DNA of 33,218 nucleotides from Myxococcales bacterium (GTDB lineage: Bacteria > Myxococcota > Myxococcia > Myxococcales > Anaeromyxobacteraceae), in the NCBI GenBank assembly GCA_021782135.1, contig JAJXVM010000003.1, positions 1-33,218 of the forward strand. Reading direction: 5' to 3'. Of the stretch, positions 3 to 24,645 are shown piece by piece (position 1 is the stretch's first letter; each line of letters begins with the position of its first letter). The notes beneath the pieces were generated by a model. It saw nothing but the letters and a program-made list of their open reading frames with translations. It did not search any database and was not told the DNA's origin. The position numbers were made by a program, and so were the translations under genes.

Positions 3-335
3 CGCGCGGTCGATCCGCGCGGCGAGGCGGCGGCCACGCGCTACCGCACGCTCGCGACCGCCCCGGGCGGCGAGGCGCTGGTGGAGGCCCGCCCCGAGAC
101 CGGCCGCACCCACCAGATCCGCGTGCACCTGGCGCACCTCGGCGCCTCGCTGCTCGGCGACCCCCGCTACGGCGGGCCGCGCCAGGTGGGCGAGCTGCGG
201 GTGCCCCGCGTGATGCTCCACGCGCGCCGGCTCGAGCTGGCGCACCCGGTCACCGGCGCGCCACTGGCGTTCGAGGCGCCGGTGCCGGAGGACTTCGCCG
301 CGGTGGGGCGGGCGCTCGGGCTCCCCCCTCCCTGA
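3..335 (+). CDS. RluA-family pseudouridine synthase, C-terminal part (5' end outside the window)
   Basis: Open frame from the window edge; RPETGRTHQIRVHLAHLGASLLGDPRYGG motif typical of the RluA family C-terminal part. Confidence 0.88.
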   Translation, partial: RAVDPRGEAAATRYRTLATAPGGEALVEARPETGRTHQIRVHLAHLGASLLGDPRYGGPRQVGELRVPRVMLHARRLELAHPVTGAPLAFEAPVPEDFAAVGRALGLPPP

Positions 336-489
336 CCCTCCCCCGCTTCGCGGGAGAGGGAACGGAGCACGCACCGCGGTTCACGCCCGAGGGTGCACCA
401 GGAGCCCCTCCCTCCCCGCCGCACGGGGAGGGCAGAGGTCACCCCCAGGCGACTCCCTCCCCGTCGCACGGGGAGGGCCGGGGAGGGGC
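336..489. repeat. Cluster of three GC-rich palindromic elements (copy A of a dispersed family)
   Basis: 336-360 CCCTCCCCCGC-TTC-GCGGGAGAGGG; 410-432 CCCTCCCCG-CCGCA-CGGGGAGGG; 455-477 CCCTCCCCG-TCGCA-CGGGGAGGG, followed by CCGGGGAGGGG. Confidence 0.8.
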
Positions 490-515
490 GACCCCGAGGC
501 CTGCCCGCCCCCTCC

Positions 516-3603: not shown

Positions 3604-4729
3604 AGGCCTCGACGGCGCGCTGCACGTCGCCCACGGTGTCGCCGCCGAACTTCTCGAGGAGGGCGTCGGCGAGCACCCAGGCCACCACCGCCTCGCCCAC
3701 CACCGCCGCGGCCGGCACCGCGCAGACGTCGCTCCGCTCGTACTTGGCGGAGACCGCCTCGCGGGTGGCGATGTCCACCGAGGGGAGCGGGGTCATCATG
3801 GTGGGGATGGGCTTCATGAAGCCGCGCACCACCACCGGCGCGCCGTTGGTGACGCCGCCCTCGAGCCCGCCGGCGCGGTTGGTCTCGCGGTAGAAGCCCC
3901 TGTCGGCGCCGTAGCGGATGGGGTCCTGGAAGCGGTCGCCGGGCAGGTCCACCCGCGTCCCCTCGCCGATCTCGGCGGCGCGGATGGCCTGGATGGCGCA
4001 GAGCGCGCCGGCGAGGCGGCCGTCGAGGCGCCGGTCGGGGTGGACGAAGCTGCCGAGGCCGGGCGGGAGCCCCTCGGCGTAGACCTCGAAGGCGCCGCCG
4101 ATGGCCGAGCCGCGCGCCTTCTCGCGGTCGATGACGGCGCGCCAGATCCCGGCCGCCTCCTCGTCGTCGGTGTGGACGTCGGAGGCCTCGATGGCGGCGC
4201 GCTGCTCGGCGGTGGGCGGGACCCCGCCGCGGCGCAGCTCCTCCCCGATGGCCACCACCCGCGAGCTCACCGTGATCCCGAAGCGGGCCAGCAGCTGCCG
4301 GGCGAGCGCGCCCAGCGCCACCACGGTGGCGGTGCCGCGGGCGCTGGCGCGCTCCAGCACGTCGCGGGCGTCGTCGAGGTCGTACTTCTGCACCCCGGCG
4401 AGGTCGGCGTGGCCGGGGCGCACCTGGGTGAACTTGCGGCCGCCGCGCGCGTAGGGGGAGACGAGCTCCTTCCAGTTCTCGTGGTCCTTGTTCCAGACCA
4501 GCAGCGCGATGGGGGAGCCGGTGGTGACCGCGCCGCGGATGCCGGAGAGGAACTGGGCCTCGTCGGTCTCGATCTTCATGCGGCCGCCGCGGCCGTAGCC
4601 CTTCTGGCGGCGGCGCAGGTCGCGGTTCACGGCGTCGAAGTCCACCGCGAGGCCGGCCGGGAAGCCCTCGGCGATGGCGCAGAGCGCGGGGCCGTGCGAC
4701 TCGCCGGCGGTGAGGTACCTGAGGGTCAT
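3584..4729 (-). CDS. aroC: Chorismate synthase
   Basis: [51 protein letters not shown]; 4-nt overlap with aroE and 20-nt overlap with aroK. Confidence 0.97.
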
Positions 4730-5601
4730 GGGGTTGCTCCGTCGAGCGCGCTTCGCATGGCCGCCTCGGGCGCCGGGCGGCCGGTCCAGATCTCGAAGGC
4801 CAGGGCGCCCTGGCGCAGGAGCACCTCCTCGCCGGAGACGAGGACGGCGCCCGCCTCCTCGGCGGCGCGGGCGAAGGGGGTGTCGCCGTAGACGAAGTCG
4901 AGCACCACCTGGCCGGAGCGCAGCGGCACCGGACAGGGGCCGCCCTGGTGCAGGCCGATGGAGGTGGCGTTCACCACGGCGTCGAAGGAGGCGGAGTCGC
5001 GGCGGGCCTCGGTCCAGGACAGGACGGCCACCGGGCCACCCCCTCCCCTGCCCTCCCCCGAGGCGGCGGAGGGAGAACCGTCACGGGAGGGGGAGGAAGG
5101 CCTCGAGCCACCCGCGGCCAGTTCCGTCGCCTTCTCGTCCCGGCGCGCGGAGATCGTCACCTCCAGGCCGAGCTGGGCGAGGGCCCAGAGCGCCGCCCGG
5201 GCCGCCCCGCCGGCGCCGAGCAGCAGCGCGCGCTGCCCGGGCTTCACGCCCGCGGCCCCGAGGAGCGCGACGCAGGCCGAGGCGTCGGTGTTGGAGGCGA
5301 TCCAGCCGTCCGGGCCGCGCCGCAGCGTGTTCGCGGCCCCCACCGCGCGCGCCACCTCGTCGGCCGAGGCGGCGGCCGCGAGCGCCTCCCGCTTGTGCGG
5401 CACGGTGACGTTGAGCCCCTGGAACCCCAGCGCGTAGGCCCCGCGGAGCGCCTCGGCCACGCGGGCCGGCTCGACCGGCAGGGCGACGTAGGCGGCGTCG
5501 AGCCCGGCCGCGGCGAAGGCGGCGTTCTGCATCGCGGGCGAGCGGCTGTGCGCGACCGGCCAGCCCACCACGCCGTACAGGGAGGTCCGCGCCGAGATCA
5601 C
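4726..5601 (-). CDS. aroE: Shikimate dehydrogenase (contains an atypical repeat-derived insertion)
   Basis: [55 protein letters not shown] start giving a GTGA overlap with the aroA stop. Confidence 0.94.
5036..5106. repeat. Dispersed GC-rich repeat, copy B, inside aroE
   Basis: 5039-5060 CCCCCTCCCCTGCCCTCCCCCG is 21/22 identical to copy C (24170-24191). Confidence 0.7.
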
Positions 5602-23244: not shown

Positions 23245-23349
23245 GTCGGACCGTTCCGGCCGACCGCCGGCCGCGCGGACGAGGCCGGCGCTCCGCCCGC
23301 CGAGAGCCGCCCTTGCAACTTTGCGCCGCCTCTGGAATGACGGGCGCGC

Positions 23350-24645
23350 ATGCGGCCGTCCGCCACCCGACAGCTCGCGCCCTACGCGCTGGCCGCGACC
23401 TTCCTCCTCGCCGGCTGGCTCAACCTCGCGCGCGGGGCGGCGCACCCGGGCGTCTCCTACCGCCCGTGGGCCTTCGCGCACCAGAGCTACTCGGACCTGC
23501 TCGCCATGGGCGGCGACCGCTACTTCAACGGCGGCCGCCCGCTGCCCTACCTCGAGGACCGGATCGAGTACCCGGTCCTCCTCGGCCTCGCCCTGTGGCT
23601 CCCCTCCTTCGCGCCCGGGGGCCCGCTCGGCTACTTCACGGCCGGCTACCTGCTGCTCGCGGCCTGCTGCCTGGGGACGATCTGGCTGCTGCGGCGCCTG
23701 CCCGGGGCCGACGCCTGGTGGCTCGCCGCCTCCCCGGCGCTGGCCTGGTACGCCGGGCTGAACTGGGACCTCCTCCCCATCCTCCTCACCGTGGGCGCGC
23801 TGGCCGCCCTGGCGCGCGGGAGGCCTGGGCTCGCGGGGGCGCTCTGCGCGCTCGGCGTCTCCGCCAAGCTCTACCCGGTGGCGCTCCTCCCCGGCGCGGC
23901 CGGCCTGCTCTGGCGCCGGCCCCGCGACCTGGCGCGCTTCGGCGGGGCGCTCGCGGCGGTGCTGCTGGCCGTGAACCTGCCGGTGGCGCTGGCCGCGCCC
24001 GCGAACTTCGCCTGGTTCTTCCGGTTCAACGGGCAGCGCGGGGCCGAGAACTCGATCTGGGAGGCGCTGCCGTTCGCGCTCTCGCCGGCCGCGCTCAACC
24101 GGATCACCGCGGCGGCGCTGCTGGCGGTCGCCGCGTTCGCGGGGCTGGCGGCGTGGCGCGCCGGGGGGGCCCCCTCCCCGGCCCTCCCCCGCCGCGCGGG
24201 AGAGGGAGAGCTTCCCGGCGACGCCGGTGGCCTCCCCTCCCCGGACCTCACCGAGCGGCGGGGAGGGAGCGGCCTCGCGCGGGCGATGGCGCCCGGCGGC
24301 CGAGGACTCCTGGCGGTCCGGCTCGGCGCCGGGCTGGTGCTCGTCACCTGGGTCGCGGCGAACAAGGTCTGGAGCCCGCAGTACGCGCTCTACGCGCTCC
24401 TCGCCGGCGCGCTCGCGGCCGCGCCCCGCGCCTGGATGGGCGCCCTCTCGGCGATGGCCATCCTCGACTACTGGCTCGCCTTCGAGTACCGCGCGCGCCT
24501 CCTCGATCCCTGGTTCCGCGATCACGCGGTCTCCCCCGGCGAGTGGGCCCGCACCGCCCTCCTCGCCGCCTTCGCCGTCTGGCTCGCCCGCGCGCTCTGG
24601 CGCGCCGCCGGCGCGCCCCCCTCCTCGCCGGAGCCCGCCCCGTGA
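23350..24645 (+). CDS. GT87/DUF2029-like polytopic membrane glycosyltransferase
   Basis: Many hydrophobic segments; WDLLPILLTVGALAALARGRPGLAGALCALGVSAKLYPVALLPG and ANKVWSPQYALYAL pattern. Confidence 0.72.
   Translation: MRPSATRQLAPYALAATFLLAGWLNLARGAAHPGVSYRPWAFAHQSYSDLLAMGGDRYFNGGRPLPYLEDRIEYPVLLGLALWLPSFAPGGPLGYFTAGYLLLAACCLGTIWLLRRLPGADAWWLAASPALAWYAGLNWDLLPILLTVGALAALARGRPGLAGALCALGVSAKLYPVALLPGAAGLLWRRPRDLARFGGALAAVLLAVNLPVALAAPANFAWFFRFNGQRGAENSIWEALPFALSPAALNRITAAALLAVAAFAGLAAWRAGGAPSPALPRRAGEGELPGDAGGLPSPDLTERRGGSGLARAMAPGGRGLLAVRLGAGLVLVTWVAANKVWSPQYALYALLAGALAAAPRAWMGALSAMAILDYWLAFEYRARLLDPWFRDHAVSPGEWARTALLAAFAVWLARALWRAAGAPPSSPEPAP
24168..24270. repeat. Dispersed GC-rich repeat, copy C (two palindromes), inside the GT87-like gene
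   Basis: 24182-24206 CCCTCCCCCGC-CGC-GCGGGAGAGGG has the same arms, including the same internal mismatch, as 336-360; a second palindrome CTCCCCTCCCCG...CGGGGAGGGAG at 24232-24269. Confidence 0.75.

Follow-up and report, generated by a model that had tools for sequence, protein, structure and literature searches.

The aroE gene of a Myxococcales MAG from the family Anaeromyxobacteraceae (assembly GCA_021782135.1) raises the question of how a housekeeping enzyme came to contain a stretch of protein whose DNA resembles a dispersed repeat, and whether this is an isolated event. The stretch of DNA analysed, here called the window, comprises positions 1 to 33,218 of contig JAJXVM010000003.1, and its relevant features are collected in Table 1. 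On the basis of the sequence alone, the original prediction held that a palindromic repeat at 5036-5106 was inserted in frame in aroE and resembled the RPEs of Rickettsia.

Table 1. Coordinates of aroE, of the repeat copies and of a second host gene in the window.
Feature	Position	Strand	Basis
aroE, shikimate dehydrogenase, 291 aa	4726..5601	-	TIGR00507 match; GTG at 5601, stop at 4726
Lineage-specific extra segment, aroE codons 163-191, 29 aa	5029..5115	-	Orthologue alignment, pLDDT
REP-like copy in aroE: 5' stretch and hairpin	5037..5098	+	R1 40.2 bits; HMM 18.3 bits
Second in-gene element, A then B-like, translated as APSPALPRRAGEGELPGDAGGLPSPDLTERRGGSG	24168..24272	+	A 37.5, B 25.5 bits
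GT87-family host gene, open frame	23341..24642	+	Pfam GT87; same-frame open coding flanks the 24168-24272 element
REP type A copy	322..365	+	65.8 bits
REP type B copy	406..437	-	HMM 29.1 bits
REP type B copy, convergent with the A copy at 322-365 in a BIME-like array	448..490	-	R2 66.6 bits

The extra segment of AroE and its repeat copy

The gene order around aroE is aroA-aroE-aroC, with overlaps of 4 nt at both ends of the gene, between its GTG start and the aroA stop and between its stop and the aroC start. The frame is open throughout the segment, as had been claimed. In the alignment of orthologues the stretch between 'EL' and 'VAVLSW' comprises 29 residues in the MAG, 18 in G001, the one other genome of the genus in the comparison, and about 11 in some 16 genomes from five other genera of the family, and the segment of the MAG thus exceeds that of the other genera by about 18 residues. 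Close homologues had been expected to be shorter at this site rather than to share a segment of the same length across the family, and the alignment bears this out, since the other genera have no same-length segment. The segment is rich in Gly, Ser and Pro. The remainder of AroE aligns well with the orthologues, and residues that are invariant in the 37-sequence alignment are retained, K70, N91, N104-T105-D106 and Q264 among them.

An AlphaFold model based on the 37 sequences had a mean pLDDT of 92, with most positions outside the insert above 90. Values were low only at about 161-190 (pLDDT approximately 55-73, and below 50 at 179-186) and in the C-terminal tail. The model places the insert after the helix at 155-164, and comparison with solved AroE structures gave top TM-scores of 0.83-0.86. 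Structure prediction, which had been proposed as a check, agrees with the claim in that the insert is predicted to be a disordered loop on an otherwise confident fold, in the NADP-binding half of the protein. The simplest reading of the model would be a floppy loop on an intact enzyme.

The repeat models that scored the aroE site were built from other copies. By the covariance model R1 the site is best described as a type A unit with an enlarged loop of 23 nt (5037-5098; 40.2 bits), and by a sequence-only HMM as a B-like hairpin at 5040-5077 (18.3 bits). The top non-repeat site in the window reached 14.5 bits under the structure model, and HMM decoys made from repeat-masked DNA, shuffled or reversed, reached at most 8.4 bits; reversed unmasked DNA was dropped as a decoy because reversed palindromes still match. 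The 22-nt core at 5039-5060 is identical to 24170-24191 at 21 of 22 positions, as originally reported, and to a third site, 324-345, at 19 of 22. Three such sites in the window compare with 0.02 expected from dinucleotide shuffles. A 90-nt query gave 48 partial DNA matches in the MAG, the best with 88% identity over 47 nt (E 2e-8).

The aroE site is a genuine but diverged member of the repeat family, and the presence of a repeat copy in frame inside this gene is confirmed. Two parts of the original prediction need to be narrowed. The repeat proper covers approximately 5037-5080, and the remainder to about 5106 is weakly repeat-like. The family does consist of hairpins, but the palindrome in aroE is imperfect, with a folding energy in the range of same-composition shuffles (z -0.6 / -0.8), a comparison that is uninformative because shuffles of C-then-G-rich DNA fold equally well.

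A genus-specific repeat family with copies inside genes

A search for the repeat across the genome, proposed along with the prediction, gave a high copy number, far beyond chance, with in-gene copies among the matches. The family consists of two related hairpins of 43-44 nt, A (CACCCCCTCCCCGRCCCTCCCCCGCTYCGCGGGAGAGGGA) and B (CGCCCCTCCCCTGCCCTCCCCGTGCGACGGGGAGGGAG), and the stem of A has 10 pairs including one conserved C.A mismatch. As in REPs and BIMEs, the hairpins are short (within 20-45 nt), have 10-bp stems and occur in more than 100 copies per genome. Structure models of each hairpin found at least 128 A and 114 B copies in the MAG and at least 138 A and 144 B copies in G001, counts that are lower bounds because 150 candidates were scored per genome. 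Inverted pairs are also present, A and B lying on opposite strands about 40-200 bp apart in many elements of both genomes. The outer ends of A and B, CACCCCCTCCCCGRCCCTCCC and CGCCCCTCCCCTGCCCTCCC, are similar and are inverted in A...B pairs, corresponding to the terminal inverted repeats of MITEs. The GTAG or CGTC tag that marks the REP superfamilies of those names is absent from the positional consensus of 159 A and 87 B copies. Among 97 genomes of the class the repeat was found in two, both of this genus, and was not detected in the other 95, including 16 of the same family, which indicates that it entered or arose in this genus. The family is therefore REP/BIME-like, composed mostly of convergent A...B pairs, and genus-specific. 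The type A copy at 322-365 supplies the TGA stop (333-335) of the upstream RluA-like gene, whose final residues, PPP, are encoded by the repeat. Tentatively, the type A copies listed in G001 (loci L275-L334) are distributed very unevenly, with about 7 over the first 2.0 Mb of the chromosome against about 60 over the other 2.6 Mb.

The positions of the copies relative to genes were surveyed in 60 repeat-bearing stretches each from the MAG and G001, chosen by repeat score. An element was called in-gene when codon log-odds, computed for the 240 nt flanking it on either side, revealed one continuously open coding region in the same frame. This was so for 15 of 73 elements in the MAG (away from contig ends) and 14 of 91 in G001, about a fifth of the sample, a fraction that is approximate because the samples were chosen by repeat score and the genes called by a codon statistic. 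A further 20 elements in the MAG and 16 in G001 lie between convergent genes, and others are found beside one gene or between same-strand genes. As the genome is mostly coding, in-gene copies look strongly depleted, as would be expected if most have been purged. The insertion in aroE as a one-off event is rejected in view of the 14 further in-gene copies in the MAG. The copy at 24170 used for comparison above is itself in frame inside another gene, of the GT87 family (23341-24642), and the A and B-like hairpins of that element (24168-24272) are in direct, not inverted, orientation.

Profile searches placed many of the inserts between domains of their host proteins. In the E2 acyltransferase the insert (99-131) lies between the lipoyl (10-82) and E3-binding (137-170) domains, in HypF (232-266) between the zinc fingers and the Sua5 domain, in DnaE2 (383-411) between the PHP and polymerase domains, in AddA (264-330) between helicase and nuclease, and in a dual-ATPase ABC protein (247-293) between the ATPase domains. 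The inserts of MEMO1 (156-170) and of a protein with a beta-lactamase fold (205-216) are inside the domain. Further hosts recognised by profile search are a PfkB-family protein and the GT87 glycosyltransferase in the window. The AddA insert (L226 1506-3011) has a short tandem unit, GLAVSARAAPPT, present twice and followed by GLTVPAPAA, between its two hairpins.

The reading frames of the repeat were examined in 148 strong A and 59 strong B copies. In ten of the 12 frames 98-100% of copies are free of stops, in one frame 95% and in A frame 3 64%. Ten of the 12 frames are used by in-gene copies, and A frame 3 is not one of them. Type A copies inside genes are found preferentially in two frames, giving PLSR.AGEGQGGG-like and PS.LPR.AGEG-like peptides, a bias that is a hint only because several of the cases are one site counted in two species. 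In the two genomes the repeat thus stands in frame in unrelated protein genes, as RPEs do, in 15 and 14 open cases, and from their sequences we infer that the in-gene inserts are translated.

Site history and origin of the inserts

Comparison of the MAG with its sister species G001 revealed both shared and lineage-specific sites. Both species have the insert in the E2 acyltransferase, which other genera lack, and that in MEMO1, which is absent from G004, G003 and G019. Shared sites with differing hairpin content were seen in three further proteins, one with a VWA domain, a neighbouring one and one without a family. One in-gene site (L207 12114-12224 / L290) holds two tandem A hairpins in the MAG and a different hairpin pair in G001, which suggests that an occupied site underwent exchange or conversion. 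In HypF the MAG has the insert, and the site is empty in G001 and in three other genera (G004, G006 and G010), with a net gain of 42 residues over G001. This difference between the sister species points to movement since they separated; the filled and empty sequences have diverged beyond the point where a target-site duplication could be resolved.

The history of the aroE insert is less direct. The AroE loop of G001 was not recognised by the repeat models. It shares 28 of 42 DNA positions with the copy in the window, a level reached by none of 102,276 random windows, but a control with synonymous recoding attains 28 of 42 in 13% of trials (p 0.13), and the likeness is therefore at the level of the peptide (a 13-residue stretch against AAGAGTGGGAPV). 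The position, intermediate length and similar peptide of the G001 loop provide modest evidence that aroE may have acquired the insert before the two species separated. Judged from these sequences, common descent of the insert in both species is plausible, though short of proven.

The most plausible explanation of these observations, and in our judgement a very probable one, is that a genus-specific REP/BIME-like family has spread, that its in-frame copies are translated, tolerated in loops and linkers, inherited and subject to decay, and that aroE carries one of them. Palindromic A...B pairs would have spread through these Anaeromyxobacteraceae genomes, most copies landing between genes. As the GC-rich sequence is nearly free of stops, copies that fall in genes with a net length divisible by three would be translated, each adding about 12-65 residues, mostly Gly, Pro, Ser, Arg and Glu. 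A copy in a surface loop or an interdomain linker would be tolerated and inherited and would then decay, and aroE would carry one such copy, tolerated in a loop of the NADP-binding half and already partly decayed. The inserts are probably near-neutral, comparable to RPE-like selfish repeats tolerated in frame. The analysis established how many copies there are and how they are built, their restriction to the genus, their in-frame location and open frames, and the existence of shared as well as lineage-specific sites. Local assembly errors are possible in the MAG, and G001, a single contig, shows the same phenomenon.

That HypF is filled in one species and empty in the other speaks for the units having moved as mobile elements, presumably by transposition with a trans-acting transposase. 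Three Y1/RAYT-like genes in G001 (L145 1258-2124, L336 and L337) have no repeat copy within about 2 kb and, being without flanking copies, are rejected as a demonstrated mover; no RAYT-like gene was found in the incomplete MAG. Two of the three are close paralogues (MTAPRQ.LPG..YLVTRRCSERR), and one resembles NF047646 below the cut-off.

One may ask whether codon slippage in this GC-rich genome instead lengthened a low-complexity loop native to AroE, which would then resemble the repeat only by coincidence. Its Gly/Ser/Pro-rich composition, the 18-residue loop of G001 without a recognisable repeat and the unremarkable folding energy would all fit such an origin. The scores of 18.3 bits (maximum elsewhere 8.4) and 40.2 bits (maximum elsewhere 14.5), the near-identical core in another copy and the 14 further unmistakable in-gene copies do not, and slippage alone is rejected for aroE and, as a reading of the segment, considered quite unlikely. 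That the host genes are pseudogenes or mis-called frames from which nothing is translated is very improbable. The MAG is fragmented and 81% complete, and the gene calls are based on codon statistics, not annotation, but codon usage is strongly coding in the same frame on both sides of the inserts, Pfam and NCBIfam matches flank or span them, the conserved residues of AroE are kept, and insert-bearing orthologues have persisted in two species.

If in-gene repeats had been co-opted, their peptides or their RNA or DNA hairpins would be under selection, e.g. as flexible linkers or as signals in transcription or mRNA stability, and the several sites kept in frame in both species and the preference of in-gene A copies for two frames could be taken as indications of this. 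This frame bias is based on few independent events, however, and frame and orientation differ between hosts. Shared-site copies differ in length and hairpin content, the host genes are functionally unrelated, and the G001 AroE loop has no recognisable copy, leaving co-option with a low probability. Unlikely, too, is the proposal that the repeat itself evolved to be compatible with translation, being stop-free in nearly all frames and biased towards those that give flexible Gly/Glu/Ser/Arg peptides, and can thereby live inside genes, repeatedly providing natural loops and linkers that persist, and are at times put to use, as species diverge.

Relation to other translated repeats

Rickettsia and Wolbachia are the best-known sources of translated palindromic repeats, and for translated REPs a number of other bacteria are on record. 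Among the REPs and REP dimers of the GTAG and CGTC superfamilies some are intragenic, lying wholly inside ORFs and contributing 20-30 or more residues (PMC3733652). The present repeat is like them in being a high-copy short palindrome that frequently forms inverted dimers and resides mostly between genes, in supplying the stop codon of a neighbouring gene, and in occurring in genes for repair and replication, which are uvrA, uvrB and recB for the GTAG/CGTC REPs and dnaE2 and addA here (PMC3733652). It differs from them in lacking the tag, in pairing two different hairpins and in that no repeat-flanked RAYT was found. Neither Myxococcota nor Anaeromyxobacter is mentioned in the main text of that survey (PMC3733652).

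RPEs are found in 19 Rickettsia frames, and Gmk, the one enzyme tested, remains active (PMC2229807; reviewed also in PMC10969869). The resemblance to RPEs that had been suggested for aroE is upheld insofar as a palindromic repeat lies in frame, and is apparently translated, in loops and interdomain linkers of unrelated conserved proteins, with some elements common to more than one species (PMC2229807, PMC10969869). The likeness is one of behaviour rather than of demonstrated descent. The hosts of RPEs are intracellular Rickettsia and the present host is a GC-rich member of the Myxococcota, a different phylum. Furthermore, an RPE is one palindrome of 105-146 bp encoding a conserved peptide, whereas the present repeat has two short hairpins that are open in nearly all frames. 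In-frame fusions in some genes are also documented for enterobacterial RU-1/ERIC, the 107-bp Correia elements and the QMITEs of Coxiella (PMC2229807, PMC2759123, PMC5896051), which share with the present repeat their small, non-autonomous nature and open frames. In contrast to it, these are MITEs of 100-400 bp, often with TA ends or target duplications, neither of which could be resolved here. No paper on repeats in Anaeromyxobacter was found in the open literature searched. The family described here is a new one of a known kind, that of intragenic REPs and RPEs, and as far as this literature shows the phylum is new for it.

Annotation and structure pipelines meet such inserts as puzzling low-complexity loops. 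With HypF empty in the sister species and the E2 acyltransferase and MEMO1 filled in both, the cost or benefit of an insert is directly testable. A family in the Myxococcota with both inherited and species-specific in-gene copies in conserved enzymes offers an independent experiment of nature, in which the entry of selfish repeats into proteins, and the sites that tolerate them, can be studied.
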